Shown here: positions 7,034 to 26,996 of the stretch, one piece after another
Position numbering within the stretch: the stretch's first letter is position 1
Layout of the letters: each line of letters begins with the position of its first letter
DNA from: Granulosicoccaceae bacterium
GTDB lineage: Bacteria; Pseudomonadota; Gammaproteobacteria; Granulosicoccales; Granulosicoccaceae
Direction of reading: 5' to 3'
Assembly: GCA_020629835.1 (NCBI GenBank)
Contig: JAHDCO010000018.1
Coordinates: forward strand, 1-41,778
DNA length: 41,778 nucleotides
The notes under the pieces: model-generated
Seen by the model: only the letters and a program-made list of their open reading frames with translations
Databases searched by the model: none
What the model was told of the DNA's origin: nothing
Program-made: the position numbers and the translations under genes

Positions 7034-7397
7034 TAACCCGCTCCCTCGCTCTGTTGAGCGAGCCGATTTTTAGCCCGGCAAGGGCGCATCAAGCACAACG
7101 TCGTCTGCTGAAGAATGTGGGTGATCCGAGGAGTCAAAATGCTACCTATCAAGCTTTATTTGTATCTCTGCCCAGTAGGCATCTTCACGCCCTAGCCAAT
7201 TGACTGGCTCTCCGGCGGTTTCATACACTACAGCAAGGGCTACATACTACCGCAACCCCTGATCACTCGGTCCGCTGGAAAGTAAGAGTCAATTGATTGA
7301 ACAAACCCCGCACAGTGATCTTTGCCGGTACGCTACGTAGCAATACAGAGCACTTATATTCAACCCATACACCTCCCAATACACCACCCAATACTCA
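7034..7397. other. Divergent intergenic region between the histidine kinase and aldehyde dehydrogenase genes
   Basis: 364 bases with no convincing open frame on either strand. It should hold the promoters of both divergent genes. No strong sigma-70 pair is visible. On the minus strand a TTGACT hexamer near 7130 is a possible -35 element without a good -10. Immediately before the dehydrogenase ATG, CCCAATA-containing units repeat imperfectly (about 7374-7396) in place of an obvious Shine-Dalgarno sequence. The short hairpin at 7045-7062 is listed separately. Confidence 0.5.
7045..7062. promoter_or_regulatory. Short perfect hairpin upstream of the histidine kinase start
   Basis: CTCGCTC (7045-7051), a TGTT loop and GAGCGAG (7056-7062) form a perfect 7-bp stem. 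It lies 12 bases upstream of the kinase ATG, next to the GGGAG-like ribosome site, so it could affect initiation. Read on the plus strand it is followed by a short T-run, but there is no plus-strand gene for it to terminate. Confidence 0.35.
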
Positions 7398-8822: not shown

Positions 8823-8867
8823 CACGTACCTACCATCAAACAAACGCCTAATCGAGCAGCACTGAGC

Positions 8868-9701: not shown

Positions 9702-9715
9702 TGAGGTCGTATATT

Positions 9716-13385: not shown

Positions 13386-14159
13386 ATGAAACTTCAACTC
13401 ATTACTTCTGCGTTACTGACCGCTGGTCTGACCTCAATTTCTGTCGCACAAACCGAGCGTGATCTCGGCGCCCATGAGCACGGTGCTGCCAGCTTAAACG
13501 TTGCGCTTCAGGACAACTTAGTCATTATCGAACTCGACAGCCCCTGGAACAATCTTATTGGATTTGAACATGCTCCAAGCACTGACGAGCAGCACGCTAT
13601 GGTAGACGATGCTATGGCCTTACTGAACACCCCAGCTAGCTTATTCTCGTTTGTGGGTACGGATTGCACACCGACAGAAACTTCTATCGAAAGTACGCTC
13701 GAAACTTCTGATCACGATGATGACCATAAAGATGAGCATAGTGACAATCATGATGAAGAGCACAAGGATGAACACGCGCACGGGGATGAGCATAAGGACG
13801 AACATGACCATGATCATGAACACAAAGATGAACATGATCATGACCATAAGCATGAGCATGAGCACAAAGACGAACACGGTCATGAACATGAAGAAGAGCA
13901 CAAAGACGAGCATGACCATGATGATCACGGCGATGACCACGCCGGCCACGATCACGACGGCGAAGTGCACTCCGAAGTATTAGGGTCTTACACATTTGAG
14001 TGTGCAGATGTGGATCAACTGACGGCAATAAATGCTGACTTACTAACCACCTGGGATGGCATTGAAGATTTGACCGTGCAACTGGTCGGTCCGTTTGGTC
14101 AAATGTCTACCATGCTGACGGCCGAAAGATCCGAACTTAACGTTACAGCGGTTAAATAA
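13386..14159 (+). CDS. zrgA: ZrgA-type zinc-uptake periplasmic protein (DUF2796) with a long His/Asp/Glu repeat tract
   Basis: 257 residues with a signal peptide cleaved near residue 21 (ISVAQ) and a good AGGAAA ribosome site. The mature N-terminus has GAHEHGAASLNVAL, then LDSPWNNLIGFEH. The C-terminal part has FECADVDQL and VQLVGPFGQ. These are features of DUF2796, named ZrgA in the Vibrio cholerae zrgABCDE zinc uptake locus. Between the two halves (residues 109-195) is a low-complexity region with six HKDEH units, clearly suited to binding Zn or similar metals in the periplasm. The following ABC ATPase, FtsX-like permease and DUF3299 genes complete the locus. I see no Zur box in the upstream region. 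Confidence 0.9.
   Translation: MKLQLITSALLTAGLTSISVAQTERDLGAHEHGAASLNVALQDNLVIIELDSPWNNLIGFEHAPSTDEQHAMVDDAMALLNTPASLFSFVGTDCTPTETSIESTLETSDHDDDHKDEHSDNHDEEHKDEHAHGDEHKDEHDHDHEHKDEHDHDHKHEHEHKDEHGHEHEEEHKDEHDHDDHGDDHAGHDHDGEVHSEVLGSYTFECADVDQLTAINADLLTTWDGIEDLTVQLVGPFGQMSTMLTAERSELNVTAVK
13710..13970 (+). repeat. Imperfect tandem repeat encoding a His/Asp/Glu-rich metal-binding tract
   Basis: In-frame region of 87 codons inside zrgA built from variants of HKDEHDHDHE. The core HKDEH occurs six times. The nucleotide repeat is imperfect because GAT/GAC, CAT/CAC and GAA/GAG vary, so the protein pattern is maintained while the DNA has diverged. It creates long spurious open frames on the opposite strand. 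Confidence 0.95.
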
Positions 14160-14203
14160 CGTTTAGACAACATGATTTTGTCAGGAAAGGACGTATTACA
14201 CTG

Positions 14204-14914
14204 ATGAATCCTACCAGTCCAATGGTTGCACTAAACCAAGTGCGCTACCAATGGCCAAACGGCAAACAGCCCGTTCTGAGTATTGATGACTTTTCCATCG
14301 ACGCTTCAGAACGGGTGTTTCTGCAAGGGCCATCTGGCTCGGGCAAAACAACCTTGCTGAGTCTCATCGCAGCCGTGCTCACCCCGCAATCAGGTTCTAT
14401 TCACGTCGATGGATGTGAGCTCAATTCCCTGCGAGGTGGGCAGCGTGATCAATTTCGAGTTGATCATATTGGACTGGTATTTCAACAATTTAATTTATTG
14501 CCGTTTCTTTCTGTTAAGGACAATATTCAGTTGCCGTGTCGATTCTCAAAGGCTCGACTTGCAAAGGTCACCGATAGCGGAAAGTCATTAAACGAAGAAA
14601 CTGAACGGCTATTGGTAGCCATGCAGTTATCTCCTGAAAAAATCAACGAAGTATCCGTATCGAATCTCAGTGTGGGGCAGCAGCAACGGGTAGCGGTAGC
14701 CCGCGCGCTCATTGGGCGGCCGCCACTGATCATTGCCGATGAGCCTACTTCTGCACTGGACAGCGACACCCGCGAGGCTTTTATCAAATTATTATTTGAC
14801 GAAGCTGATGCTGCACAGTGCGCGGTTCTGTTCGTTAGCCATGACGCGTCTCTGGCTAGCGTGTTTGATCGTAAGCTGAATTTGCGCGAAATCAATTCCG
14901 CTCAGATTTCGTAG
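14204..14914 (+). CDS. ABC transporter ATPase of the zinc locus (LolD/MacB-like)
   Basis: 236 residues forming one nucleotide-binding domain. Walker A is GPSGSGKTT at 42-50, followed by a Q-loop region (GLVFQQFNLL), the signature LSVGQQQRVAVARAL, Walker B LIIADEPTSALD, and the switch His in LFVSHD. The sequence is closest in form to the LolD/MacB/FtsE class, which pairs with FtsX-like permeases, and such a permease is encoded 16 bases downstream. An AGGAAAGG stretch about 13 bases before the ATG may serve as the ribosome site. Position between ZrgA and DUF3299 indicates that it energises the zinc (zrg-type) system. Confidence 0.93.
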   Translation: MNPTSPMVALNQVRYQWPNGKQPVLSIDDFSIDASERVFLQGPSGSGKTTLLSLIAAVLTPQSGSIHVDGCELNSLRGGQRDQFRVDHIGLVFQQFNLLPFLSVKDNIQLPCRFSKARLAKVTDSGKSLNEETERLLVAMQLSPEKINEVSVSNLSVGQQQRVAVARALIGRPPLIIADEPTSALDSDTREAFIKLLFDEADAAQCAVLFVSHDASLASVFDRKLNLREINSAQIS

Positions 14915-14930
14915 TTAAGGAGAGCATTTT

Positions 14931-16184
14931 GTGTTCAGTCTTGCGTTAAACAGTCTTCGCAACCGATGGTCTACCGCCCTATTGGCGGTACTGGCCATTG
15001 CGATGAGTGTGGCTTTAATAATGAGTGTGGAAAAAATTCGCCGCGACGCGCGCAGTAGCTTTACGCAAACGGTATCTGGGACCGATCTGATTGTTGGTGC
15101 GCGAAGCGGGGCTGTTCAGTTGTTACTGTATTCAGTGTTTCGTATTGGCAATGCTACGAACAACATTAGCTGGGAAAGCGTTGAGGATGTGATGGCAAAC
15201 CCAGCAGTCGACTGGGTGATACCGATTTCTTTAGGCGACTCGCACAAAGGATTTCGTGTCCTGGGTACCAGCCAAAATTACTTTACTCATTACCGCTACG
15301 GCGACAAACGCTCGATTGAATTTGCAGGCGGACAACCTTTCGATGATGTGTTTGATGCGGTACTGGGTGCCGATGTGGCCGCTGAACTCAACTACCAGCT
15401 AGGCGATTCCATCGTGGTGGCTCATGGAACAGGTCGAGTTGGGTTGGTAGCACACGAAAACCAGCCGTTCCGCGTCAGCGGCATATTAAAACCCACCGGC
15501 ACTCCAGTAGACAGAGCGGTTCACGTGAGTTTGGAGGGTATTGAAGCAATGCACGTCGACTGGCGAAATGGGGCGCAGGTGCGAGGTGCCGCCACACCAG
15601 CAGACGAAATTCGAGCCATGAATTTACAACCCAAGGCCGTTACTGCGTTAATGGTAGGGTTAAAATCCAGGGCTGCGGTGTTCCGTGTACAACGGGCGAT
15701 CAACACATACCGGGAGGAGCCTCTTCTGGCTATTCTGCCTGGTGTTGCATTACAGGAACTGTGGAATTTGATTCGGGTAGCCGAAAAAGCGCTTCAAGGT
15801 GTCTCCATCTGTGTTGTTTTTGCCGGCTTAGTGAATTTGATATCCGTATTGTTAGCCGGGCTTAATGAACGCCGACGCGAAATGGCTGTCTTACGATCAG
15901 CGGGAGCCAGGCCTGCACACATATTTAGATTGCTGTGCTTTGAGTCGGTGACCTTAACCCTGGTTGGTATCGTTGCCGGTTTGGTTTTGCATTACACCGC
16001 TATGGCGATTGGCGCGTTGTACATTCAGCAAAATTATGGGCTGGCGCTCACCTGGGCACTGCCGAATCGTACAGATTGGACCATTCTGGGCGCCATACTG
16101 ATTGCAGGTTTGTTCGCGGGTACTATTCCGGCGTTGCAAGCCTATCGAGCATCGCTATCTGACGGTCTTTCTCAAAGACTGTAG
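14931..16184 (+). CDS. ABC transporter permease of the zinc locus (FtsX/MacB-like)
   Basis: 417 residues from a GTG start preceded by a clear AAGGAG. Membrane segments: one at residues 14-32, then a large extracytoplasmic domain (about 45-270) with FtsX/MacB-type features, then three C-terminal segments (ISVCVVFAGLVNLISVLL, LVGIVAGLVLHYTAMAIG, WTILGAILIAGLFAGTIPA) with the MacB-like loop ERRREMAVLRSAGA. This is the 1+3 topology of mechanotransmission ABC proteins rather than the ZnuB importer fold. It is co-transcribed with the ATPase and the ZrgA-like protein, so it belongs to the zrg-type zinc system, but how such a permease would support uptake is not evident from sequence. Confidence 0.9.
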   Translation: MFSLALNSLRNRWSTALLAVLAIAMSVALIMSVEKIRRDARSSFTQTVSGTDLIVGARSGAVQLLLYSVFRIGNATNNISWESVEDVMANPAVDWVIPISLGDSHKGFRVLGTSQNYFTHYRYGDKRSIEFAGGQPFDDVFDAVLGADVAAELNYQLGDSIVVAHGTGRVGLVAHENQPFRVSGILKPTGTPVDRAVHVSLEGIEAMHVDWRNGAQVRGAATPADEIRAMNLQPKAVTALMVGLKSRAAVFRVQRAINTYREEPLLAILPGVALQELWNLIRVAEKALQGVSICVVFAGLVNLISVLLAGLNERRREMAVLRSAGARPAHIFRLLCFESVTLTLVGIVAGLVLHYTAMAIGALYIQQNYGLALTWALPNRTDWTILGAILIAGLFAGTIPALQAYRASLSDGLSQRL

Positions 16185-16204
16185 CAAAGCAAAGAGTACA
16201 GACT

Positions 16205-16789
16205 ATGAACATTCGAACCGTACTATTAGGACTGGCTGCCTTCGTTGCTGTAACCCTTTCTATCAACGCGTATTCGTGGTGGTGGCCGTTCTCCAAAAAA
16301 GATGAAACCGTCATACAGGGTGACGTCACCGAAATACTGTGGGATGACCTGATTCCTGAAGATTTTATTCAACCCGAGAACCCGTTTCTCAGCATGACGG
16401 AAGCGGAAATCGACAAATTGATGGACGGCAGCGAAGAGTCGTACGCCGAGATCGAACGACTGCAAAAGATATTTGAGTACGCGCCAGTCGTAGAGGATCT
16501 TGATGGTAAACGCGTCAAGCTACCGGCTTACATCACACCACTGGACTTCAACGCAGAATCCACCATCAAAGAATTTTTACTCGTGCCCTATTTTGGCGCG
16601 TGCATTCACGTACCACCACCACCAGCGAATCAAGTGGTGCACGCAGAATCGGATGAGCCTATACCCTTCACCAGTATGTACGACCCGGTCTGGGCGGTTG
16701 GCGTCATTCGCGCCGAAACCGTGAAAAGTGATCTGGCAGAGTCCGGGTATCGATTGGACGTTGAAGCGGTCATGCCTTACTCACCGTAA
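16205..16789 (+). CDS. DUF3299 protein of the zinc locus
   Basis: 194 residues. An N-terminal hydrophobic stretch (residues 4-24, ending near NAYSWWW) is a signal peptide or membrane anchor. The C-terminal domain has the DUF3299 hallmarks KLPAYITPLDF, FLLVPYFGACIHVPPPPANQ and MYDPVWAVGVI. The conserved Cys-x-His with the PPPP stretch could bind a metal. DUF3299 proteins accompany FtsX-type permeases and ZrgA-like proteins in gammaproteobacterial zinc loci, and this gene follows the permease by 20 bases. It is the last gene of the operon, convergent with the next gene at 13 bases distance, with no clear terminator hairpin. Confidence 0.88.
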   Translation: MNIRTVLLGLAAFVAVTLSINAYSWWWPFSKKDETVIQGDVTEILWDDLIPEDFIQPENPFLSMTEAEIDKLMDGSEESYAEIERLQKIFEYAPVVEDLDGKRVKLPAYITPLDFNAESTIKEFLLVPYFGACIHVPPPPANQVVHAESDEPIPFTSMYDPVWAVGVIRAETVKSDLAESGYRLDVEAVMPYSP

Positions 16790-16802: not shown

Positions 16803-17240
16803 TCAGTTCGCGGCGTCTTCCTTCTTGGCTATTTTGTGCGCTTCTTCCTTTAGACCCTTTTTCCAATAGCTGGAAATATAGCGGTGCGATTTCGGCACGG
16901 CCTTTTCGTCTCGAACAAACTGACGAATCTTTTGCATTGACTTAAATTCACACGCTGCCCAGGCGGCTGCGACCCCACCCACATCACCATCCGGATTTAC
17001 ATGCAACATAAAGTCGATATCTAATTCGTTGGGATCGTATCGTTGTCGTGATACGGTGTAGGTCCGTAAAGCGGGTTGGTCGGGTGTTTCGCCCGGGAAC
17101 AGCAACTTGACGTACCCACCTGCCGCGTCGGGGGGAAAGCCGTTCAGATCATCTCCGGCAAGCGTTACACGACGCATATGCGTGCTCAACTGTTCGGTCG
17201 ACTTTACTGTCAGTTGCCGCGTGTTTCGCTTTCTCACCAT
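16803..17240 (-). CDS. Siderophore-interacting protein homologue, shortened: FAD domain plus C-terminal tail, NAD(P) domain core missing
   Basis: 145 residues from the ATG at 17240 (an upstream ATG at 17279 lacks family support). The N-terminus resembles SIP/ViuB flavoproteins: STHMRRVTLAGDDL, GGYVKLLFPG, and the FAD-binding RTYTVS at 59-64. After residue 90 it passes directly from the end of the FAD domain (DGDVGGVA) to what looks like the family's C-terminal WxACEF-SM-xIRxF segment and SSYWKKG tail. Family members are usually about 250 residues, so roughly 100 residues, most of the NAD(P)-binding domain, are absent without loss of reading frame. It may be a degenerate remnant or a minimal flavin-binding protein. 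It diverges from the Rieske operon with about 80 bases between starts. Full ferric-siderophore reductase activity is unlikely. Confidence 0.75.
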   Translation of the reverse strand: MVRKRNTRQLTVKSTEQLSTHMRRVTLAGDDLNGFPPDAAGGYVKLLFPGETPDQPALRTYTVSRQRYDPNELDIDFMLHVNPDGDVGGVAAAWAACEFKSMQKIRQFVRDEKAVPKSHRYISSYWKKGLKEEAHKIAKKEDAAN

Positions 17241-17320
17241 GATTGAAGCCTGTGGTCCATCTTTTTGTTGTTTGCACAATGCACTCTGATATTTGAGCCA
17301 AGCTCGCGCGTTTTCGCATT

Positions 17321-17614
17321 ATGACTGTGTCTATTGAAAAACATCTTCGCTTAGTTGGGCAATTCAAAAATGATCATTTTATCGATTGGATAACTCGCAG
17401 AGCTGCCAAACTGTCGTTGTCGGGGGATGTGGTGCAACTCAGTCACACCGAGATCTGCCTTACAGTTATTGGTCACCCGATTCTCGTTGATGCCATGGAA
17501 GTCGCGTGCAATCTCGGGCCGATTGATGCCTCGGTGGATTTAATCATTGAGGAAAAGCGGTCTTTGCCTCAGGTTTATCGACAATCAGCAAAAATCGTTA
17601 GATACTTTGGTTAG
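17321..17614 (+). CDS. Acylphosphatase-fold protein lacking the catalytic residues
   Basis: 97 residues. Length and spacing of segments match acylphosphatase: LRLVGQF, an amphipathic helix FIDWITRRAAKLSLSG, the strand pair VVQL/ICLTVIG, the helix ILVDAMEVACNLGP and the strand SVDLIIEE. At the catalytic positions, the loop Arg of the usual GxVQGVGFR motif aligns with Ile21, and the Asn after the first helix aligns with Gln39. Phosphatase activity is therefore not expected. It is the first gene of the plus-strand operon, ending 27 bases before the Rieske protein ATG, so it may be a small accessory protein of that system. The assignment rests on pattern comparison by eye. Confidence 0.65.
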   Translation: MTVSIEKHLRLVGQFKNDHFIDWITRRAAKLSLSGDVVQLSHTEICLTVIGHPILVDAMEVACNLGPIDASVDLIIEEKRSLPQVYRQSAKIVRYFG

Positions 17615-17641
17615 GTTTTGCTGAGAAGACCCATCGGTGAT

Positions 17642-18361
17642 ATGACCACACAGCCTGTTAGCCTTTCTCGCGACCTTGCCGAAAAGCAAGTGATGCGTGC
17701 CGAACTCAGCGACGTTGATATGGCGGTATGGCGAAGTGCCAGTGGCGTTGTCTCAGCCTGGGAAAACCGCTGCCCGCACCGCGGGATGCGCCTCTCACAC
17801 GGCTTTGTTCGGGGTGAATCGCTAGCCTGCGCTTATCACGGCTGGCACTACAACTGCGAAGGGGCTTGCCACTATATCCCGGCTCATCCCGAGCTCGAGC
17901 CACCGAAAACCATCAAGGCTAACTTGTACAACGTTACCGAAGCGTCTGGAATCATCTGGGTAAACGCCGTAGGTACTGTATCTCCCGTAACTCTTCCGTC
18001 CAACACACAAGCGGTTCGTAGCGTATCCGTCCACTGTTCATTAGAAATTGCAGCGCAGGCGTTCAAAGACTACTGCAGTCTCTCACCTATTACAGCAAAC
18101 ACACGCACCGAAGTTGTTTCAGAGTCACCTTATGTACTGGCGCTGAAAGCCCCACTACCTGCGAATTCACCCACACCATCAATGCAAGACAAGAGCAACC
18201 CTGTCAGCGTTTTTATCGCACTTCAACGTGTTAATCAAACAACAACAGTGGCGCACATCACCGCAAGTGAACATGCCAGTGAGACCGACTGCATCGCATT
18301 ATCCCGTTGGGCCAACAAGGTACGTACCCACGCCGAAGTCAGTGTCGGATCAACAGAGTGA
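17642..18361 (+). CDS. Stand-alone Rieske [2Fe-2S] protein
   Basis: 239 residues from the ATG at 17642; an in-frame TTG at 17618 would add eight residues. The Rieske ligands are complete: C44-x-H46 (CPHRG) and C63-x2-H66 (CAYHGWHY), with the N-terminal form of the oxygenase-type Rieske domain. After residue 115 the sequence is unlike a normal oxygenase catalytic domain: no D-x2-H-x4-H iron site is present, and the remaining 120 residues (HCSLEIAAQAFKDYCSL onward) are unassigned. It probably shuttles electrons to the cluster-less oxygenase subunit encoded 7 bases downstream. The N-terminal Rieske part of the NdmD reductase is a functional parallel, but here no reductase module is attached. Confidence 0.85.
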   Translation: MTTQPVSLSRDLAEKQVMRAELSDVDMAVWRSASGVVSAWENRCPHRGMRLSHGFVRGESLACAYHGWHYNCEGACHYIPAHPELEPPKTIKANLYNVTEASGIIWVNAVGTVSPVTLPSNTQAVRSVSVHCSLEIAAQAFKDYCSLSPITANTRTEVVSESPYVLALKAPLPANSPTPSMQDKSNPVSVFIALQRVNQTTTVAHITASEHASETDCIALSRWANKVRTHAEVSVGSTE

Positions 18362-18368
18362 CCTTTCG

Positions 18369-19241
18369 ATGAACGCTGCCTTAGAACATGCTTTACAGGA
18401 TTGGTATCCCATCGCGATGCTGGGAGAGTTAGCACCGGGTGAACGTAAGCAGTCCAGGGTACTGGGCATCGACGTTACGGTATTAGCCAACGACTCAGCA
18501 GACGAAACCGATTCAACGCCACCCATTACCGTGAGAGCCGAAGGTGCGCCAGTGCATGTACAACAGGCGTTTGATCACTGGTGGGTATGTTTAGGCAATG
18601 CACCGAAGCCTCTGTTTAGCATTGAAGAAGCCGGCGAAGCGGATCGTCGCTTTGTACCCTGCGGGGTTGTACGCGTGGCATGCTCACCACTGCGCGCTGT
18701 TGAGAACTTTTTAGATATTGCGCATTTTCCGTTCGTACACACCGGTGTTTTAGGTGCTGAGCCCCACACGGAAGTGTACAAGTACGATGTGAAGGTCGAT
18801 GAAACACGTGATGAAGTCATCGCAACGAACATCAAGTTTTATCAACCCCAAGCAGCGAAGTCAGCCGAAGGTGGAATTCAAACGGAATACATCTATCGAG
18901 TGCCGGCACCTATGGCCGCCGTGCTCTACAAAACCTGTCCGCTCAAACCGGAGGCTATGGATGTCATTGCCTTGTTTGTGCAACCACTGGACGAACAAAC
19001 CTGTGATGTGTGGCCCTGGATGGCGCTGTACGATGACACGAGTACTCAGGCAGAACTGATTCAGTTTCAGCAATTGATTTTTCTGCAGGATCGATCGATT
19101 CTGGAAAACCAGCTACCGAAAAAACTTCCGATTGACCCAGGCCACGAGATTCCAACAAAAGCCGATTACACGTCAGTCGCCTATAGACGTTGGCTAAAAA
19201 AACGCGGTGCCTATTATGGGGCACTTGAGGCGCAGCCATGA
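18369..19241 (+). CDS. Rieske-type oxygenase catalytic subunit lacking the Rieske cluster (NdmC-like)
   Basis: 290 residues from the ATG at 18369. A longer frame starting at 18228 overlaps the Rieske gene by 134 bases and has no family support. The N-terminus begins like an oxygenase alpha subunit (DWYPIAMLGELAPGE), but the cluster ligands CxH and CxxH are absent and the region is shortened. The mononuclear iron site is intact: NFLDIAHFPFVH gives Asp116, His119 and His124, and QDRSILENQ gives a likely third ligand, Asp241. The protein must therefore receive electrons from another protein's Rieske centre, as NdmC does in 7-methylxanthine demethylation. The preceding gene encodes a Rieske protein and the next, overlapping by ATGA, a GST-like protein comparable to NdmE. 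An N-demethylase role is inferred. Confidence 0.85.
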   Translation: MNAALEHALQDWYPIAMLGELAPGERKQSRVLGIDVTVLANDSADETDSTPPITVRAEGAPVHVQQAFDHWWVCLGNAPKPLFSIEEAGEADRRFVPCGVVRVACSPLRAVENFLDIAHFPFVHTGVLGAEPHTEVYKYDVKVDETRDEVIATNIKFYQPQAAKSAEGGIQTEYIYRVPAPMAAVLYKTCPLKPEAMDVIALFVQPLDEQTCDVWPWMALYDDTSTQAELIQFQQLIFLQDRSILENQLPKKLPIDPGHEIPTKADYTSVAYRRWLKKRGAYYGALEAQP

Positions 19242-19900
19242 GTTTTACCTTGCACGACTACGTGCTCTCCGGCAACTGCTACAAAGTTCGGCTCCTCGCA
19301 CAGATTCTCGGTGTTGCTTACACGGTGAAGCCTGTAGATTTTCATCCGGGTAAAGCGCACAAAACACCCGAGTTTTTAGCCCTGAATCCGCACGGCACCT
19401 TACCAGTACTGGAGTCCGACAATACCCTATTAACTGACTCATCGGCGATGTTGGTCTGGATTGCACAGCAATTTGATACAACGCATACATGGTGGCCTAC
19501 CAACGATGCGCATCGCTTGGCACTGACAGTTCAGTGGCTGGGGTTTTCAGCAAAGCTAACCGAGTCAATTGGGCAACTGCGGTTACATACGATGCTTAAT
19601 CGTCCAGCTGACGCAGCAACGCTTAACACATTAAGCACTGAGAACCTTCGGGAGTTGGAAAACCACTTATGCGAACAATCTATACGTGGGCTAGCGTTTT
19701 TAACCGGCGATCAGCCTACGGTTGCTGATATTGCTTGCTTTGCTTACTCGGCGCTGAGCCCGGATGCTGGTATAGAACACACGCTCTACCCGGCGATCCG
19801 CGGTTGGCTTCACCGCATCAGATGCCTTGAAGGTTTCCTGACCATGCCCGGAATTTATGAGGCCCACGAAACCCGCAACGAACATACGGCCGCTTCATGA
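19238..19900 (+). CDS. Glutathione S-transferase-like protein (possible NdmE-type structural subunit)
   Basis: 220 residues with an N-terminal thioredoxin-like GST domain (SGNCYKVRLLAQILG, NPHGTLPVLESDN with the cis-Pro, TDSSAMLVWIA) and an all-helical C-terminal domain containing TVADIACFAYSAL. The start overlaps the oxygenase stop and the stop overlaps the amidohydrolase start, both as ATGA, so translation is coupled. GST-like NdmE holds the NdmC-NdmD demethylase complex together and is needed for activity. The same gene order next to a cluster-less oxygenase suggests an equivalent role here. A catalytic glutathione transferase remains possible, because Ser11 or Cys14 could activate glutathione. 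Confidence 0.88.
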   Translation: MSFTLHDYVLSGNCYKVRLLAQILGVAYTVKPVDFHPGKAHKTPEFLALNPHGTLPVLESDNTLLTDSSAMLVWIAQQFDTTHTWWPTNDAHRLALTVQWLGFSAKLTESIGQLRLHTMLNRPADAATLNTLSTENLRELENHLCEQSIRGLAFLTGDQPTVADIACFAYSALSPDAGIEHTLYPAIRGWLHRIRCLEGFLTMPGIYEAHETRNEHTAAS

Positions 19901-21282
19901 GTAGTCTGCTATTCAAATCGTGCGATGCCATCGTTACCTGTGATGATAATCAAACCATTCATCGCGGCGCTGATTTGCTGATAACCGGCACCACCATTGA
20001 TCGCATCGAACCAAACATCCCTGAAGAATCCCTGCCCAATAACACTGAGGTAATTGACGCAAAAGGACACTTCATCTATCCCGGCTTAATCAATACGCAC
20101 CATCACTTTTTTCAGGTGTTTGTTCGTAACCATGCGCATCTGGATTGGACTAAGTATTCTGTAATCGAATGGCTTGACAGAATTTATCCACTGTTTTCAA
20201 AGCTTGATGAAGACTGCTTCTACCACTCGTCACTGGTGGCAATGAGTGAACTTATAAAGCACGGCTGTACCACCGCGTTCGACCATCAATACAATTTTCC
20301 ACGCCACGCGGGCAAATATTTAATTGATCGACAGTTTGATGCGGCTGAAACCTTGGGTATGCGCTTCCATGCCGGTCGAGGTGGCAATACATTGCCTAAA
20401 ACCGAAGGCAGTACGATTCCTGAGGAGATGCGCGAAAGCACTGAAGAATTTATAAACGACTGTGAGCGCCTGATTGATCGGCATCACGACAGCGGCCATG
20501 GCAGCATGAGGCAAGTCGCCATTGCTCCCTGCCAACCGGTCAACTGTTATCAAGACACGTTCACCGAATCCGTTGCGTTAGCTCGGGATAAAGGAGTGTT
20601 GTTGCACAGCCACGTAGGCGAAGGCGAAAGTCCAGTATTAAAAGAACGTACGGGGCTTCGAACGGTTGATTGGTGCGAAAGCATCGGCTTTTTGGGCGAT
20701 GATGTTTGGTTGGCTCATTGCTGGGAGCTGAATGCAGACGAAATAAAAACACTCGCCACTAGCGGTACCGGTGTTTCTCATTGCCCGGAACCTGTGTACC
20801 TGGTTGGTGCAGAAGTCACCCCGCTTGCGCAAATGTTCGATGCGGGGGTTCGCTTAAGTTTAGGGGTAGACGGAGCTGCTTCAAACGATAACTCAAACTT
20901 GATGCACTGCATTCACAGCGCCTACATGCTGCAAGCGCTGGTCAGCGCACAGCATGAGTTTGCGGTTCCAGAGCCCAGCGAGTTTTTGAACATGGCCACT
21001 CGGGGCGGCGCCAGCGTCTTAAATCGGCCCGATTTAGGGAGCCTTAGCGCTGGCCAGGCGGCGGATTTATTCATGTTAGATATGCGCAAAATGGATTACG
21101 TTGGCGCGCTACACGACCCAGCCAGCCTGATCGCGAAAGTCGGTGTATCCACGCCGGTGGACCTTACGTTAATCAATGGCCGCGTGGTTTGGCGGGATGG
21201 GGAATTCCCAGGTCTGGATGAGCAGGCCATGGCGCATGAAGCACAGCGGCATGTTGAACGAATTGTGTACCCTCATCTATGA
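19897..21282 (+). CDS. Amidohydrolase of the 8-oxoguanine/guanine deaminase (TRZ/ATZ) family
   Basis: 461 residues, normal for the family. Metal ligands are visible as H68-x-H70 in INTHHHFF, a further His pair at 237 and 239 (LLHSHVGEGES), His in WLAHCWEL and Asp in LGVDGAASND. The last motif is characteristic of 8-oxoguanine deaminase and hydroxyatrazine-type hydrolases. The usual HCPxSNM segment after the fourth strand reads SHCPEPVYLVG instead, so the substrate pocket may differ. The enzyme should hydrolyse an exocyclic amine from a purine-like or triazine-like ring. Translation is coupled to the GST-like gene. The downstream purine-nucleoside-type ABC importer supports a purine substrate. 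Confidence 0.9.
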   Translation: MSSLLFKSCDAIVTCDDNQTIHRGADLLITGTTIDRIEPNIPEESLPNNTEVIDAKGHFIYPGLINTHHHFFQVFVRNHAHLDWTKYSVIEWLDRIYPLFSKLDEDCFYHSSLVAMSELIKHGCTTAFDHQYNFPRHAGKYLIDRQFDAAETLGMRFHAGRGGNTLPKTEGSTIPEEMRESTEEFINDCERLIDRHHDSGHGSMRQVAIAPCQPVNCYQDTFTESVALARDKGVLLHSHVGEGESPVLKERTGLRTVDWCESIGFLGDDVWLAHCWELNADEIKTLATSGTGVSHCPEPVYLVGAEVTPLAQMFDAGVRLSLGVDGAASNDNSNLMHCIHSAYMLQALVSAQHEFAVPEPSEFLNMATRGGASVLNRPDLGSLSAGQAADLFMLDMRKMDYVGALHDPASLIAKVGVSTPVDLTLINGRVVWRDGEFPGLDEQAMAHEAQRHVERIVYPHL

Positions 21283-21296
21283 GGCGATTTTGAATT

Positions 21297-21313
21297 TTAT
21301 GCTGAACGCATAA
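21297..21313. promoter_or_regulatory. Small inverted repeat before the BMP-family binding-protein gene
   Basis: Arms TTATGC and GCATAA flank TGAAC in the 88-base gap between the deaminase and the binding-protein gene. It could be a minor operator or mRNA hairpin. It is weak and has no T-run. Confidence 0.25.
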
Positions 21314-21370
21314 CCACTTTGAGACAACTGTGTTGCAAATACCATTCACCCTTAGGAGATGTTCAGTTCT

Positions 21371-22447
21371 ATGAAGACTATGTCAAAACTACTTACCGCT
21401 GCAGCGCTAACCAGTGCGCTTATCAGCACCACCGCACACGCCGATACGTTAGAAATCGGTGTGCTACTTCCATCGCCCATCGCCGATGTGGGTTGGTCAC
21501 ACGCTTTGCATGAAGGCATCAACGCCGTCAAAGAAAAACACGGCGATGCGGTCAACGTGAATGTGGTCGAAAATATTCAAGAAGGCCCGGATGCCGACCG
21601 CATCATGAATAAAATGGTTGGTGACGGGAATGACTTCCTACTACTCGGATCATTCGGGTATATGAATGCGGGTTTGAAGCTGGCGCAGCGAAACCCGGAT
21701 AAATCATTTATCCACGCCTCTGGTTATAAGACGGCAGATAACTTCTCACCGTTCACAGCAAAGTACTACGAAGGCGCTTACCTAATGGGTATGGCGGCTG
21801 CAGAAGTCACCAAAACCAAAAAGTTGGGCGTAGTCGCTGCTTTCGCTATTCCTGAACTGATCTCAACCATCAATGGTTTTACTTTAGGTGCTCGAAGTAT
21901 TGACCCGGAGATTACGGTTGACGTGATTTGGATTAACTCCTGGTTTGACCCAGCCAAGGCGCAAGACTCTGCCAAGGCATTGCTGGCCGGTGGTGCGGAT
22001 GTCCTGTTCTCAAACGCTCAGGACACCCCGTCAGTTGTAACTGTTGGTGAAGAAGGCGGTGCTTATGTATTCAACCTGAACAGCTCGATGAAAGAGTACG
22101 CACCCACAAAATATTTAGGTGTGGTGAAAACTGACTGGGCGCCGTTCTTTGTGGCCTCTGTTGATGCGCACCTGGCTGGCAATTTTGAAGGCCAGAACCA
22201 ATGGCTCGGCATGACTGATGATGTGGTCGTGGTAGAAGACTGGAGTGATGACATCAGTGACGACATGAAAGCCAAAATCGCTGCTGTTCAAGCCGACATC
22301 GTATCTGGTGCCCGCCATGTTTATGACGGCCCTTTGGTTAATCAAGCCGGTGAAGAAGTCATAGCGGCCGGTGTACGACTGGAAGACGGGGCAATCCTCG
22401 GCATGGATTGGCACGTGGAAGGTGTTAATTCGCCTTTACCAAAGTAA
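21371..22447 (+). CDS. BMP-family (PnrA-like) ABC transporter substrate-binding protein
   Basis: 358 residues from the ATG at 21371. The ATG at 21359 directly abuts the AGGAG and is too close to use it. The signal peptide MKTMSKLLTAAALTSALIS ends at THADT-like residues. The mature protein shows BMP/PnrA features: GVLLPSPIADVGWSHALHEG at the ligand cleft, SFIHASGY, GAYLMGMAAAEVTKT, and IWINSWFDPAKAQDSAKALLAGGADV. PnrA proteins bind purine nucleosides, and other members bind related nucleobase or autoinducer-type ligands. The ATPase and two permeases follow. The deaminase and oxygenase genes upstream point to a purine-like ligand. No lipobox is visible, so it is likely a free periplasmic protein. 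Confidence 0.93.
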   Translation: MKTMSKLLTAAALTSALISTTAHADTLEIGVLLPSPIADVGWSHALHEGINAVKEKHGDAVNVNVVENIQEGPDADRIMNKMVGDGNDFLLLGSFGYMNAGLKLAQRNPDKSFIHASGYKTADNFSPFTAKYYEGAYLMGMAAAEVTKTKKLGVVAAFAIPELISTINGFTLGARSIDPEITVDVIWINSWFDPAKAQDSAKALLAGGADVLFSNAQDTPSVVTVGEEGGAYVFNLNSSMKEYAPTKYLGVVKTDWAPFFVASVDAHLAGNFEGQNQWLGMTDDVVVVEDWSDDISDDMKAKIAAVQADIVSGARHVYDGPLVNQAGEEVIAAGVRLEDGAILGMDWHVEGVNSPLPK

Positions 22448-22464
22448 TTTAAGCTGTAATCGTG

Positions 22465-22495
22465 GCATGCTGCGGGTCGACGACCTGCAGCATGC
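22465..22495 (+). promoter_or_regulatory. 31-base near-perfect hairpin between the binding-protein and ATPase genes
   Basis: Two 15-base arms (starting GCATGCTGC and ending GCAGCATGC) around a single central A. The only imperfection is a G-T pair that is a G-U wobble in the RNA. It lies 18 bases after the binding-protein stop and 19 bases before the ATPase start, with no T-run. In binding-protein-dependent ABC operons such hairpins commonly protect the upstream mRNA and reduce downstream expression, so the binding protein is made in excess. Confidence 0.75.
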
Positions 22496-22513
22496 ACACG
22501 CGGTGATACGCCA

Positions 22514-24067
22514 TTGAGTAAGCACACTCCCCCGCTCTTGTCGCTTCGCGACATTACGAAGCGTTACCCATCCGTGGTAGCGAACGATTCCATAAACCTT
22601 GATGTTCACACAGGCTCCATCCATGCCGTGTTGGGCGAAAACGGTGCCGGTAAATCCACGCTGATGAAACTGGTGTACGGCATGGTAGAGGCTGACAGCG
22701 GATCCATGAGCTGGAACGGCAACGTCGTGAATCTAAAAAATTCTGCTGCTGCAAGAAAATTAGGCATCGGCATGGTATTCCAACACTTCTCGTTGTTTGA
22801 AACCTTGAGCGTGGTGGAAAATATATCGCTCACCATGCCAGGCTCCCGCGCAGAATTAGCCAAAAAAATTAAAGCCATCGGCGAACGTTATCAATTGGTG
22901 GTTAACCCTGACGCTTCTGTGCACGCGTTATCCGTCGGTGAACGTCAGCGAGTTGAAATTATCCGCTGCCTGATGCAGGACCTAAAACTTCTGATCCTGG
23001 ACGAACCCACATCCGTCTTACCACCCCAGCATATCCAGTCACTGTTCGATGCGTTACGCAAATTACGCGACAGTGGCGTAGCGATTTTATTTATCTCTCA
23101 CAAACTTGATGAGATTAGAGACTTGTGTGATACCGCTACCGTGCTTCGCGATGGCCGAGTAGCGGGTACCGTAAACCCTCAGGAAGCTACTTCGCAAGAA
23201 TTAGCCACGTTGATGATCGGCCGTGAGGTACCTCATATTCAATCAACGCGGGAGTCGGTAAACGATGCGAGTACGGTGCTTCGCTTGAATCAGTTGTCGG
23301 CGAAGAACCCCGACCCGTTTGGCACGTCATTGACCGGAATTGATCTGCACGTTAAACAACACGAAATCGTGGGCATTGCCGGGGTTTCTGGAAATGGTCA
23401 ACAAGAGTTATCACGAATCATTTCTGGTGAATGGCGACCGAAGTCGCTAACCACTCAAGCTATAGAAATGTTCGGCCAGCCCGTTGCCGAGTTGGGGCCA
23501 ACGGAACGACGCAGTCTGGGGTTTTCGTTTGTACCCGAAGAACGCTTGGGACGAGGTGCGGTTCCACCGATGTCGTTAAACCAGAATGCGTTACTTACGG
23601 CATTCAGCCAGGGTATTTTAAATCGTGGTTTTATTCGTAAGAAAACGCTGAGAAGTTTCACTGATCAGTGCATTGCCGATTTCGATGTACGTTGTGGTGG
23701 AAACAACGCCATTGCCAGTTCTCTTTCCGGTGGCAACTTGCAAAAGTACATCATCGGTCGCGAACTGATGCTGAAGCCCAGGTTACTGTTCGTCGCCCAA
23801 CCCACCTGGGGGGTAGACATCGGAGCGGCGACCGCTATTCGTCAGCGATTATTGGATTTGCGTGACCAGGGGATAGGCGTTCTGATCGTATCGGAAGAAA
23901 TCGAAGAGTTGTTTGAAGTCACTGATCGTCTGTACGTGATTAACGGGGGCAAGCTATCGCCTTCTTTGGTAACGGCTGAGGTCACACCAAACGATATTGG
24001 TGAATACATGATAGCCACGCATTCATCTGATGCCGCTCAGCCAGAGGTACACGCTCATGGTGTTTAG
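22514..24067 (+). CDS. Double-domain ABC ATPase of the BMP-type importer
   Basis: 517 residues beginning at a TTG; no in-frame ATG is available before the first Walker box. The N-terminal ABC domain is complete, with Walker A GENGAGKST at 41-49, signature LSVGERQRVEI and Walker B LLILDEPTSVL. The second domain has a degenerate Walker A (GVSGNGQQEL, no GKS/T), signature LSGGNLQKYIIG and an altered Walker B (LLFVAQPTWGVD), as is normal for sugar/nucleoside-type ATPases of this family. It energises import with the two permeases downstream. The weak start (TTG, only GGTGAT upstream) together with the hairpin before it should lower its synthesis relative to the binding protein. Confidence 0.93.
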   Translation: MSKHTPPLLSLRDITKRYPSVVANDSINLDVHTGSIHAVLGENGAGKSTLMKLVYGMVEADSGSMSWNGNVVNLKNSAAARKLGIGMVFQHFSLFETLSVVENISLTMPGSRAELAKKIKAIGERYQLVVNPDASVHALSVGERQRVEIIRCLMQDLKLLILDEPTSVLPPQHIQSLFDALRKLRDSGVAILFISHKLDEIRDLCDTATVLRDGRVAGTVNPQEATSQELATLMIGREVPHIQSTRESVNDASTVLRLNQLSAKNPDPFGTSLTGIDLHVKQHEIVGIAGVSGNGQQELSRIISGEWRPKSLTTQAIEMFGQPVAELGPTERRSLGFSFVPEERLGRGAVPPMSLNQNALLTAFSQGILNRGFIRKKTLRSFTDQCIADFDVRCGGNNAIASSLSGGNLQKYIIGRELMLKPRLLFVAQPTWGVDIGAATAIRQRLLDLRDQGIGVLIVSEEIEELFEVTDRLYVINGGKLSPSLVTAEVTPNDIGEYMIATHSSDAAQPEVHAHGV

Positions 24068-25148
24068 GTTAGTTAAGCGTGAGCATGCGAGCCGTTGGAT
24101 GCTGCTGGTAACGCCTCTATTGGCGGTGCTGCTGTCCATTCTTGCCAGTTCAATCCTGTTAGTTATATTAGGAAAACCTGTGCTGCTTACGATGCACTCG
24201 TTTTTCATTGCACCGTTCGAGAACTTTTACTCGATAACCGAAATATTTTTAAAATTCGGGCCACTACTGCTCATCGCTCAAGCACTGGCCGTTGGCTTTC
24301 GAGCGAAGGTGTGGAACATCGGCGCTGAAGGGCAAATGATTATCGGTGCGATCTGCGCAAGCGCTGTACCCGTCTATTTTGTTGACAGCACATCAGGCTG
24401 GATGCTACCCACCATGGCGGTGTTAGGCGCACTGGGTGGTATGGCGTGGGCAGCGATCGCGGCATTCTTAAAGACTCGATTTAACGCCAACGAAATCCTG
24501 GTAACGCTGATGCTCAGTGCCATCGCACTGCAATTACTTTACTACCTGCTACTCGGCCCGTGGAAAGACCCCATGGGTTTCAACTTCCCGCAAACCGTTA
24601 TGTTTCAAAACGAAGCGCTGTTTGCGCCTTTGTTCAGCGGCGTTCGCTTAAACACCTCGATATTCATCCCGATAGCATTCACTCTGGCGGTCTGGCTGCT
24701 CATGGAGAAACACTTTGCTGGCTTCACGCTTGAAGTTGGTGGGCAGGCACCAAATGCCGCTACGTACGCAGGCTTTAGTGCGAAGAAAGCTGTGTGGGTC
24801 AGCCTGCTACTTGCAGGTTTTGCGGCAGGTATCGCTGGTATGAGTGAAGTTGCCGGGCCAATCGGCCAACTGCAGCGTTCTGTTACCTCGGGCTATGGCT
24901 ACGCAGGGATTATCGTGGCGTACTTAGGAGCGCTACACCCAATCGGTATCGTGTTTGCCGCATTCTTTCTGGCCGTGTTGCAAATCGGCGGGGATGTCGC
25001 CTTAGTCTCTGCAGACTTACCCATCAGCGCCGTCCAGGTGTTCCAGGGTCTATTACTGATCTTCTACTTATCGGTGTATACCTTGGTTAACTATCGTATT
25101 CAGCCAGCACGCGTTGAAAAAGCGGCTTCCACGGGGTTACCTTCATGA
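24057..25148 (+). CDS. ABC transporter permease 1 of the BMP-type importer
   Basis: 363 residues from the ATG at 24057, which overlaps the ATPase stop by 11 bases and has AGAGG upstream; the longer frame from 24030 is less likely. About eight to ten hydrophobic segments are present. Family hallmarks of sugar/nucleoside-type permeases (BPD_transp_2) include GFRAKVWNIGAEGQMIIGA, FLKTRFNANEILVTLMLS and GYGYAGIIVAYLG. It pairs with the next permease as the heterodimeric channel. Translation is coupled on both sides, with an ATGA overlap into permease 2. Confidence 0.93.
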   Translation: MVFRLVKREHASRWMLLVTPLLAVLLSILASSILLVILGKPVLLTMHSFFIAPFENFYSITEIFLKFGPLLLIAQALAVGFRAKVWNIGAEGQMIIGAICASAVPVYFVDSTSGWMLPTMAVLGALGGMAWAAIAAFLKTRFNANEILVTLMLSAIALQLLYYLLLGPWKDPMGFNFPQTVMFQNEALFAPLFSGVRLNTSIFIPIAFTLAVWLLMEKHFAGFTLEVGGQAPNAATYAGFSAKKAVWVSLLLAGFAAGIAGMSEVAGPIGQLQRSVTSGYGYAGIIVAYLGALHPIGIVFAAFFLAVLQIGGDVALVSADLPISAVQVFQGLLLIFYLSVYTLVNYRIQPARVEKAASTGLPS

Positions 25149-26071
25149 ACACCCTGGAATTTTTCCTAGCCGGTACCCTCAGTGCTGCCACCATTTTCTT
25201 GCTAGCCGCATTAGGGGAACTGGTTGCCGAAAAGTCTGGGGTGCTGAACTTAAGCTTAGAAGGCATGATGGCGGTTGGTGCTGCCGTGGGCTTCGTGGTC
25301 ACCTACGAATCCGGCAATCATGTTCTAGGCTTTGCTATTGCGGGTTTAGCCGGTGTTTGTGTCTCGCTGGTCTTTGCGTTTGTTACCTTGACGTTTCTAG
25401 CCAATCAAGTGGCGACAGGATTGGCGGTTGGTATTTTGGGCTTAGGCCTTTCCGCCCTTATCGGGCGCAATCATGAAAGCCTGACGATCGCGGCTACCGA
25501 AGGTATCAACATCCCTGTCCTTAGTGATATCCCACTAATCGGCGCAGTCTTCTTCCAACAGAACCTGGTTGTGTATATAACGTTTGCCTTAGCTATCGTC
25601 ATTGCTTTGGTGTTATCCACCACACGCTTAGGCTTAGCCATACGATCCACTGGTGAAAACCCACACGCTGCCCAGGCGTTAGGCTGTCCTGTGTTTTTAA
25701 TACGCTACGGCTGCGTTGCGTTTGGCGGGCTGCTCGCAGGCTGTGCGGGCGCATACGCTTCTACGATTTATACCCCGCTCTGGGCCGACGGCATGATTGC
25801 AGGCCGTGGCTGGATCGCAGTAGCTTTAGTGGTGTTTGGTACATGGAAAACCGGTCGCATTGCCTTTGGTGCGGTGTTGTTCGGCATGGTGTCATTAGGG
25901 GAATTGATTGCGCAGGCCATGGGTGCACGCGTGCCGTCGCAGCTACTGTCTAGCCTGCCCTATATCGTCACGATTATTGTGCTGGCGGCCATTTCAACCA
26001 ACACCGCCCGGATGCGATTGCACGCGCCGTTTTCATTAGGTGAAACCTTCGATGGGTCCAACGATCGTTAA
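25145..26071 (+). CDS. ABC transporter permease 2 of the BMP-type importer
   Basis: 308 residues, starting within the stop of permease 1 (ATGA). The family pattern is clear: ALGELVAEKSGVLNLSLEGMM near residue 20, FLANQVATGLAVGILGLGLSA, RLGLAIRSTGENPHAAQALG in the cytoplasmic coupling loop, and GRGWIAVALVVFGTWKTGRI. About eight to nine membrane segments. With permease 1, the ATPase and the BMP-family binding protein this completes one importer, probably for a purine-like compound. Confidence 0.93.
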   Translation: MNTLEFFLAGTLSAATIFLLAALGELVAEKSGVLNLSLEGMMAVGAAVGFVVTYESGNHVLGFAIAGLAGVCVSLVFAFVTLTFLANQVATGLAVGILGLGLSALIGRNHESLTIAATEGINIPVLSDIPLIGAVFFQQNLVVYITFALAIVIALVLSTTRLGLAIRSTGENPHAAQALGCPVFLIRYGCVAFGGLLAGCAGAYASTIYTPLWADGMIAGRGWIAVALVVFGTWKTGRIAFGAVLFGMVSLGELIAQAMGARVPSQLLSSLPYIVTIIVLAAISTNTARMRLHAPFSLGETFDGSNDR

Positions 26072-26120
26072 CACGCTGATGCTGTTGTAAGATGACGCGT
26101 GGCACCGTTGGAGGTTGTGT

Positions 26121-26996
26121 ATGTCAGAAGTACTCACAGAGGATCAGAAGCGCTTTTATGAAGAATCAGGCTATCTGGTTTTAGAGCGTCACCTACCCGC
26201 CAACGTCATTGATAGCATTCGAGCTGAAATTGCTCGGTTTGAAAAGGAATCACGCGCGCTTACTGCATCCAACGATCGTTTAGAACTGGAAGATGGGCAT
26301 ACGTCAGAAAACCCTCGTGTGCGTAGAATTCGACTACCCCACACCATCAGTGATGTGATGCGGGACCTCATGTACTCGGATCATATTCTGGCACCCGCGC
26401 GGGATCTTATAGGCCCTAACTTACGGCTGCACACCACCAAACTCAATATGAAATCACCCGGCAACGGTGCAGCCATTGAATGGCATCAGGACTACGCGTT
26501 CTACCCCCACACCAACGACGACATACTCGCCATTGGTGTCATCATTGATGACATGGAACCCGAGAATGGGCCTCTGATGGTTTACCCGGGCAGTCATAAA
26601 GGGCCAGTCTACGATCATCACGCCGATGGGGTTTTTGCTGGGGCGTTCCTACCTAGTGACGTCGGTTTAGATCCTGCACAAACGGTAGAACTCACCGGCC
26701 CTGCAGGATCTATATCCATTCACCATGGACGAATCGCGCACGGCTCAGCGGTCAATACATCTGCTCGCTCGCGCAGAATTTTGTTCTACGAAATGATGGC
26801 CGCCGATGCCTTTCCCATTATGGGCTCGTTGACGAAGTGGGATGGTATAGAGGATTACGACACACGCATGTTATGCGGAGAACCAACACTCACACCGCGA
26901 TTAAAAGACATACCCATCCGCATTCCCCAGCCACAACCGGATGTGCCTGTGTCAATTTATGAAATTCAAAAAGGGCTAAAAGGAAGCGGGTTTTAG
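26121..26996 (+). CDS. PhyH-type Fe(II)/2-oxoglutarate oxygenase
   Basis: 291 residues from the ATG at 26121, which has a strong GGAGG six bases before it; an upstream in-frame TTG is unlikely. Phytanoyl-CoA dioxygenase-like. The N-terminus DQKRFYEESGYLVLE is the typical first helix. The iron ligands are His122-x-Asp124 (EWHQDYAFYPH) and probably His207 (GRIAHGSAVN), with Arg218 for 2-oxoglutarate. Members hydroxylate diverse small molecules. It is the last gene in the direction of the importer/deaminase operon, 49 bases after permease 2, so it may oxidise the imported compound or a methyl group on it. The substrate is unknown. Its stop is 22 bases from the convergent VOC gene. Confidence 0.9.
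   Translation: MSEVLTEDQKRFYEESGYLVLERHLPANVIDSIRAEIARFEKESRALTASNDRLELEDGHTSENPRVRRIRLPHTISDVMRDLMYSDHILAPARDLIGPNLRLHTTKLNMKSPGNGAAIEWHQDYAFYPHTNDDILAIGVIIDDMEPENGPLMVYPGSHKGPVYDHHADGVFAGAFLPSDVGLDPAQTVELTGPAGSISIHHGRIAHGSAVNTSARSRRILFYEMMAADAFPIMGSLTKWDGIEDYDTRMLCGEPTLTPRLKDIPIRIPQPQPDVPVSIYEIQKGLKGSGF

Follow-up and report, generated by a model that had tools for sequence, protein, structure and literature searches.

The window analysed here is a stretch of 41,778 nucleotides from a Granulosicoccaceae bacterium (assembly GCA_020629835.1, contig JAHDCO010000018.1), and its plus strand carries an operon in which a split oxygenase related to the caffeine N7-demethylase NdmC stands beside a BMP-type importer and an amidohydrolase with the residue signature of N2,N2-dimethylguanine hydrolases (NdmH). 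Gene order, homology, active-site residues, phylogeny and linkage, all observed directly, define this unit, and we lean towards the view that it serves the catabolism of N-methylated guanines, for example bases arising from RNA turnover. The first-pass annotation of the window had proposed the uptake and N-demethylation of a methylated purine. That core idea stands and is sharpened, with partial support, into a combination of a split NdmC-type oxygenase, an importer and a hydrolase of N2-methylated guanines, in which the import of a purine, its demethylation and the position of the methyl group removed are predictions.

A split NdmC-type oxygenase in a conserved operon

The oxygenase is divided between two chains. 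The catalytic subunit has no Rieske match in Pfam and matches PF19112 (VanA_C); its PDB matches are led by SxtDIOX (2.7e-24), followed by SxtT, NdmA and NdmB, and its iron ligands N113, D116, H119, H124 and D241 are invariant in 35/35 aligned oxygenases. The neighbouring Rieske protein has the cluster ligands C44, H46, C63 and H66, which are invariant in all 22 Rieske proteins compared. The oxygenase thus has N-x2-D-x2-H-x4-H and lacks C-x-H/C-x2-H, and the Rieske protein shows the reverse. The likeness of the latter to NdmD holds for the N-terminal part of NdmD, as a profile of 51 stand-alone Rieske proteins aligned with the N-terminal region of 18 NdmD-type fusions at an hhalign probability of 100 (E 6.6e-53, 220 columns). 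It does not extend to the reductase: the reductase half of NdmD is absent from the Rieske protein, and there is no reductase gene in the operon.

An AlphaFold2 model of the Rieske protein, with a mean predicted local distance difference test (pLDDT) score of 86, was searched against known structures with VIA-align, and the best 21 entries were all Rieske oxygenase alpha subunits (Z 17.8-19.2; root-mean-square deviation 3.1-3.8 over 219-231 residues), including dicamba monooxygenase, GxtA, SxtT, NdmA and NdmB. The model aligns with whole alpha subunits from first to last residues (to 237-239), and its C-terminal half may be a remnant of a catalytic domain. Since the model spans whole alpha subunits and the oxygenase is devoid of a Rieske domain, the two subunits appear to have lost complementary halves. 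A model of the oxygenase subunit (mean pLDDT 48) was set aside.

The phylogeny links these chains to the caffeine system. In NdmCDE, the cluster-less NdmC takes electrons from the Rieske centre of NdmD, and NdmE, which resembles glutathione S-transferases (GSTs), serves as a scaffold; no other protein of the Rieske-less clade described below has, to our knowledge, been studied. NdmC removes the N7-methyl group, and ndmCDE homologues without assigned function have been noted in 18 further organisms (PMC4408171). The caffeine clusters L077 (plasmid of Pseudomonas putida MT178) and L078 stood in for P. putida CBB5 as references; in L077, which also holds formaldehyde genes, NdmB matches PDB entry 6icl (NdmB) at full length (residues 1-355, E 9.5e-236).

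In an oxygenase tree of 80 rows, the Rieske-less proteins form one 72-row clade with the caffeine-cluster NdmC (support 98/97), and those accompanied by a stand-alone Rieske protein form within it a 51-row sub-clade that contains the window (100/96). One very long branch with a stand-alone Rieske protein, L079, falls just outside this sub-clade, and one L078 row, a shortened version of a gene that is itself full-length, groups with the NdmA/NdmB rows, as expected. The window's oxygenase is 42% identical to NdmC of L077. The GST tree has a corresponding 71-row clade with NdmE, the window inside it (93/94, under the starred level of the tool); outside it lie two additional GSTs and the three remaining GST matches of the genome. 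The window's GST-like protein is 42% and 45% identical to NdmE of L077 and L078, respectively, versus 24-28% to the other GST matches of its genome. The kinships suggested at first pass, with NdmC rather than an unrelated Rieske family and with NdmE rather than ordinary GSTs, are thereby supported.

Neighbourhoods were compared by tblastn across loci, most of which had been fetched through an oxygenase match. A nine-gene core, made up of the acylphosphatase-fold, Rieske, Rieske-less oxygenase, GST-like and amidohydrolase genes and a four-part BMP-type importer, has an unchanged order and orientation in 25 of the 27 loci that have the window's amidohydrolase type (window included); the exceptions are L048, which ends at a contig edge, and L118, where the GST match falls in two parts. 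The same ordered set of nine is seen again in Granulosicoccaceae, Rhizobiaceae, Rhodobacterales and one unclassified alphaproteobacterium. This linkage is beyond chance, and the operon is real and conserved, not peculiar to one genome. The window comes from the Granulosicoccus group, and the nearest named record is Granulosicoccus sp. MAG-44, whose oxygenase is 90% identical to that of the window. Among 143 relatives, the oxygenase was found in 24, own genome included: seven further genomes have it at full length at 70-90% identity, ten at 46-49% and one at 58%, and the rest comprise four partial matches (49-87%) and one weak match (30%).

Because the 27 loci were mostly collected through the oxygenase, a search with the amidohydrolase only provides a fair test of linkage. 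At E<=1e-130, 11 genomes out of 397 from a single order, probably rhizobial, had the amidohydrolase; in each of them the end of the oxygenase gene lies about 0.6-0.7 kb upstream of it, in the same orientation, and the other operon genes surround it. The oxygenase family was detected at E<=1e-25 in 65 of the same 397 genomes and therefore has other settings as well. Of 398 genomes sampled across the phylum, four besides the window's own had the amidohydrolase at 64-66% identity, all of them within the 11, and the next-best matches were at 39% or less. Exceptions to the linkage are the AtzB-like plasmid loci L073 and L074, near which tblastn gave no oxygenase match. A search of viral contigs returned no match. 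The PhyH-type gene, counted as an operon member at first pass, lies within 3 kb after permease 2 in only 1 of the 25 NdmH-type loci with at least 1 kb of sequence there, namely the window, and it was dropped as a pathway member.

The acylphosphatase fold proposed for the first gene is matched, though weakly, by PF00708 (16 bits against the Pfam gathering score of 22.5), and the catalytic residues are mostly lost in its family. A profile search found this gene in 49 of 51 stand-alone-Rieske loci and in 0 of 18 NdmD-type-fusion loci, figures that do not count independent events because the loci are related. In 48 of the 49 it lies close to the Rieske gene, in L053 it is about 8 kb off, and it is absent in L142 and L147. 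At the positions that we take, by eye from the acylphosphatase motif, to be those of the catalytic Arg and Asn, 4/48 relatives have Arg and 0/48 have Asn (window included), the window protein having Ile and Gln; Cys63, Gly66 and Pro67 are invariant in all 48 aligned relatives. To judge from these residues, the protein is probably a non-catalytic, recurrent companion of the stand-alone Rieske subunit, beside which it may play a structural or electron-transfer role.

Related loci display other arrangements. The L079 cluster (3923-10474), on a kombucha plasmid of the tea-culture strain Komagataeibacter nataicola, combines a Rieske-less oxygenase and a second protein resembling oxygenases with a single PDR/VanB reductase and two genes each for Rieske and GST proteins, and is possibly a split methylxanthine system. 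On a conjugative plasmid of Klebsiella pneumoniae MS6671 (L050, 7728-14382), a cluster resembling NdmC/NdmD/NdmE lies amid insertion sequences, together with another Rieske oxygenase and a TIM-barrel protein. In L138, L139 and L143, which have the stand-alone Rieske set, the acylphosphatase-like gene and the oxygenase gene diverge from each other, and no importer or amidohydrolase match lies nearby; in L139, an adenine-deaminase-like protein, named by eye, adjoins the set.

The amidohydrolase and the binding protein

The amidohydrolase had been assigned at first pass to the 8-oxoguanine/guanine-deaminase type, which is right as to family. The NCBIfam profile that it matches is that of 8-oxoguanine deaminase, NF006055, but the score of 402.5 bits stays below the cut-off of 532. 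For NdmH, the N2,N2-dimethylguanine hydrolases published in 2026, the listed residues are C213, Q214, N217 and N165 (CQNN), together with Q74, W85, W93, Y98, Y133, E243, H275, P300 and D326, in poNdmH numbering (PMC13054789). The window's protein holds all thirteen, CQNN included, at a constant numbering offset of one, and they are present in 27/27 copies of the window type, a type itself picked by five of the thirteen. At the CQNN places, 8-oxoguanine-type rows have C, S, S and M, and guanine-deaminase-type rows have R, F, S or A, and M; both are without Pro at position 300. A new point is that the enzyme is predicted to be an NdmH-type N2,N2-dimethylguanine hydrolase and is not a typical 8-oxoguanine deaminase. 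The latter label was dropped on the sub-cut-off score and the NdmH residues, the L053 enzyme reaching 669 bits with the same profile. Four NdmH-type enzymes have kcat/KM values 150-3600 times higher on N2,N2-dimethylguanine than on guanine, hydrolyse the former to xanthine and dimethylamine with no oxygenase needed, and are described by their discoverers as having a physiological context under investigation (PMC13054789). Since the window's amidohydrolase carries this signature, a 2-amino purine such as methylguanine fits it better than a methylxanthine, the other substrate example given at first pass.

The oxygenase set pairs with three kinds of amidohydrolase for 2-amino purines, namely NdmH, guanine deaminase and 8-oxoguanine deaminase. 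The last pairing bears on an alternative in which the oxygenase hydroxylates purine C8, as HpxD is thought to do, and the deaminase then acts on an 8-oxoguanine-type product. L053 joins the same oxygenase family to its above-cut-off 8-oxoguanine deaminase, the amidohydrolases of L075, L141 and L145 share the 8-oxoguanine-deaminase residues of L053, and N7 and C8 are adjacent ring positions. HpxD, annotated as a subunit of a molybdenum-cofactor-independent xanthine hydroxylase, is likewise a purine-related Rieske oxygenase, but it is a distant relative of the window's oxygenase, at 26.1-28.5% identity, a distance known from tblastn and outside the tree, and it presumably keeps its own Rieske cluster. 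With NdmH and not 8-oxoguanine-deaminase residues in the window's amidohydrolase, and with N7-methyl removal by the studied clade member NdmC (PMC4408171), hydroxylation at C8 is decidedly unlikely.

Where NdmH has CQNN, AtzB has SSII (PMC13054789). The L073 and L074 proteins, annotated plainly as 'amidohydrolase' and named AtzB-like here from their SSII residues and, in L074, a neighbouring atzC, have S, S, I and I at these places and keep the other nine residues. Such AtzB-like proteins are 56-57% identical to the window's amidohydrolase, AtzT resembles the binding protein, and the nearest studied oxygenase sits in caffeine clusters, all of which would suit a system serving a methylated purine alkaloid or a xenobiotic s-triazine instead of RNA-derived bases. 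However, CQNN and not SSII is found in 27/27 copies of the window's amidohydrolase type, methylxanthines have no 2-amino group for the enzyme to attack, and the operon genes are carried by environmental genomes and by plasmids from bacteria of soil and root nodules, not by known degraders only (plasmid records examined: 10 of 262 with an oxygenase match, 4 of 202 with an amidohydrolase match, and three more). This option is very unlikely.

In the window's own family, sister operons (L056-L064, with L066 incomplete) combine an NdmD-type fusion and an importer with a guanine-deaminase-type amidohydrolase; the sequence of L065 ends before the position of that gene. The one sister enzyme tested, from L058, scores above the guanine deaminase cut-off (406.5 vs 375.4 bits). 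Deaminase swapping within one oxygenase clade was considered and rejected: an approximately unbiased (AU) test with 36 of 44 rows kept gave p 0.154, so that no swap is claimed and a single clade of NdmH-linked oxygenases is possible. An earlier AU test (p 2.5e-8) was invalid, with eight loci without a detected complete amidohydrolase, some of them cut at contig ends, nested among the NdmH rows. In L075 (Rhizobium grahamii) and L141, the oxygenase set is linked to three amidohydrolases, of the 8-oxoguanine type, the guanine deaminase type and a third type.

PnrA proteins bind purine nucleosides, and the window's binding protein is of this type. Its PDB matches are 3s99 from Brucella (8.6e-74) and 6pi5, AtzT (2.7e-72), a protein that binds guanine with a dissociation constant of 110 nM as well as several ring compounds (PMC6834077). 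At the pocket positions given in that source, the pattern W-SF-E-[ST]-W-NAQD is found in 27/27 NdmH-type loci, window included, and W-SF-E-I/L-W-(L, I or V)-YQD in 15/16 guanine-deaminase-type loci, the 8-oxoguanine-type loci being counted apart. The pocket thus appears to change with the deaminase type.

The candidate pathway and its standing

In the pathway that we favour, the BMP-type importer would take up a methylated guanine base, from which the split NdmC-type Rieske oxygenase would strip a ring N-methyl group, most likely at N7, as formaldehyde. The 290-residue subunit would hold mononuclear iron and receive electrons from the [2Fe-2S] cluster of the separate 239-residue subunit, with the NdmE-like protein holding the two together, the acylphosphatase-fold protein acting as a non-enzymatic partner of the Rieske subunit, and a reductase encoded elsewhere supplying the electrons. 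The NdmH-type amidohydrolase would remove dimethylamine, or another amine, from C2, and the resulting xanthine would enter ordinary purine breakdown. The genome encodes a separate guanine deaminase (571 bits against the 375.4 cut-off) and a xanthine dehydrogenase whose large subunit is split between two contig ends, each piece by itself below the cut-off. Elsewhere in it (L161, 1172-7816, contig C57), an operon encoding Glu_synthase, Gln-synt, GCV_T, DmmA-like, reductase and HODM proteins is predicted to serve dimethylamine use or oxidation. All of these genes are no more than permissive evidence for the pathway. Dimethylamine-oxidation genes were rejected as a marker of the window's operon, since their distribution does not follow it.

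Several points weigh against this pathway. An identity of 42% to NdmC does not fix the substrate, and the functions of the oxygenase and importer are predicted. The sole PDR/VanB-type match in the genome at E<=1e-10, obtained with the PDR/VanB reductase that the L053 cluster of Paracoccus alcaliphilus encodes as query, is the reductase of the dimethylamine operon. HODM, a haem-dependent demethylase (PF11927), occurs in 3/9 genomes of the group with oxygenases at 70-100% identity, in 1/13 of the 46-52% group and in seven genomes of the family without the oxygenase, and therefore does not track the operon. The formaldehyde-oxidation genes of L077 and L078, used as queries, were found in 0/32 loci (the window and L117-L147). 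The pocket pattern, which tracks the phylogeny of the operon as well, is not independent evidence, and plain guanine is bound well by AtzT, which has Asn at one of the discriminating positions (PMC6834077). Finally, NdmH requires no oxygenase in order to act on N2,N2-dimethylguanine, so that a role for the oxygenase calls for either a second methyl group or another substrate.

A second substrate would mean that two compounds share one importer, with each enzyme working by itself, the NdmH-type one on N2,N2-dimethylguanine and the oxygenase on a different methylated purine. This division is compatible with the independence of NdmH from any oxygenase (PMC13054789), with the several ring compounds bound by AtzT (PMC6834077) and with the mixture of methylated bases that RNA turnover would supply. 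Nevertheless, the oxygenase neighbours the amidohydrolase in 11/11 genomes retrieved through the latter, which suggests, without proving, one pathway, and we hold the two-substrate arrangement to be unlikely, though worth keeping in view.

For a single pathway acting on N-methylated guanines, the most specific predictions are N7 as the site of demethylation and N2,N2,7-trimethylguanine as a compound for which both enzymes would be required; it is the base found in the trimethylguanosine cap that small RNAs of eukaryotes bear. In a dedicated pathway for it, the oxygenase would remove the N7-methyl group to give N2,N2-dimethylguanine, which NdmH would convert to xanthine, the guanine-deaminase sister operons would form a matching 7-methylguanine pathway, and the stand-alone Rieske protein with an acylphosphatase-derived fourth subunit would represent an undescribed Rieske oxygenase architecture. 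In this full form, the proposal is speculative and rather unlikely. In the open-licence PMC literature, no paper was found on 7-methylguanine with a demethylase and a Rieske protein, on a trimethylguanine demethylase in bacterial purine use, or joining 8-oxoguanine deaminase with a Rieske protein; dimethylguanine with deaminase and operon yielded tRNA-modification reviews only, Rieske oxygenase, NdmC or methylguanine gave caffeine reviews and otherwise papers unrelated by title, and acylphosphatase with Rieske and GST gave nothing relevant by title.

The operon offers a genomic home for NdmH-type enzymes, relatives of the atrazine enzyme AtzB, and it joins the caffeine N7-demethylase NdmCDE, the ancestry of AtzB and the guanine-binding AtzT, which have so far been studied separately. 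It also suggests testable substrates for the ndmCDE homologues of the 18 further organisms (PMC4408171), and it hints at how environmental and plant-associated bacteria may make use of methylated bases. The conserved pseudo-acylphosphatase is a likely new partner of the Rieske protein.

Gene layout and comparison with known systems

All ten plus-strand open reading frames (ORFs) named by the first-pass annotation are present in the window, the ORF list and the Pfam matches agreeing on their families (Table 1). Several ATGA overlaps had been reported, and three are confirmed from the ORF ends, at 19238-19241 (also read in the DNA), 19897-19900 and 25145-25148. The Rieske ORF is open from TTG at 17618, and the ATG at 17642 gives 239 residues; the latter is probably the start, because the 51 stand-alone homologues, window's included, span 187-257 residues.

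Table 1. Coordinates of the operon genes and the adjoining PhyH-type gene in the window
Feature	Coordinates	Strand	Evidence
Acylphosphatase-fold protein, 97 residues	17321..17614	+	PF00708 at 16 bits, under the cut-off
Stand-alone Rieske [2Fe-2S] subunit, 239 residues from ATG	17642..18361	+	PF00355, 73 bits
Rieske-less oxygenase catalytic subunit, NdmC-like, 290 residues	18369..19241	+	PF19112 VanA_C, 78 bits
GST-like protein, NdmE-like, 220 residues	19238..19900	+	GST_N families
Amidohydrolase with NdmH signature, 461 residues	19897..21282	+	Amidohydro_1; NdmH residues
BMP/PnrA-type periplasmic binding protein, AtzT relative	21359..22447	+	PF02608 Bmp
ATP-binding cassette (ABC) transporter ATPase	22514..24067	+	ABC_tran, two stretches; conserved in operon
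ABC transporter permease 1	24030..25148	+	BPD_transp_2; conserved in operon
ABC transporter permease 2	25145..26071	+	BPD_transp_2; conserved in operon
PhyH-type dioxygenase, adjoins operon, outside conserved core	26115..26996	+	PF05721

Upstream of the operon, the minus strand encodes a siderophore-interacting FAD protein of only 158 residues (16803-17279), whose best-matching parts correspond to the beginning of PF08021 and to the end of PF04954, as though the middle were absent. At 13386-16789, on the plus strand, a gene for a ZrgA-like protein of zinc uptake precedes genes for an ABC ATPase, a protein identified by eye as permease-like and a DUF3299 protein; together they probably make up a separate unit related to zinc.

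Among known systems, the NdmH/AtzB cluster (PMC13054789) shares all 13 poNdmH residues with the window's amidohydrolase, a likeness judged by this residue list, the activity being predicted. AtzT (6pi5) and 3s99 belong to the family of the binding protein. In the alignment, which uses the positions of PMC6834077, the window protein keeps five of the eight AtzT pocket positions (Ser97, Phe98, Glu165, Trp194 and Asn218) and differs at Tyr45, Asn169 and Asn220, with Trp for Tyr45, Thr for Asn169, and one inserted residue and Asp near Asn220. Acylphosphatases are linked by a weak profile match to the first gene product, whose family differs from them in its sub-cut-off score, in the Arg and Asn that are mostly gone and in a new invariant Cys. 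A further counterpart is NdmC-NdmD-NdmE of P. putida CBB5, which likewise has a Rieske-less oxygenase, a Rieske cluster on another chain and a GST-like partner; the three window proteins are homologous to the L077 caffeine-cluster parts. The window's set, the activity of which is predicted, differs in having its Rieske protein as a stand-alone gene without the reductase half, and it adds an acylphosphatase-like gene and linkage to an importer and an amidohydrolase.

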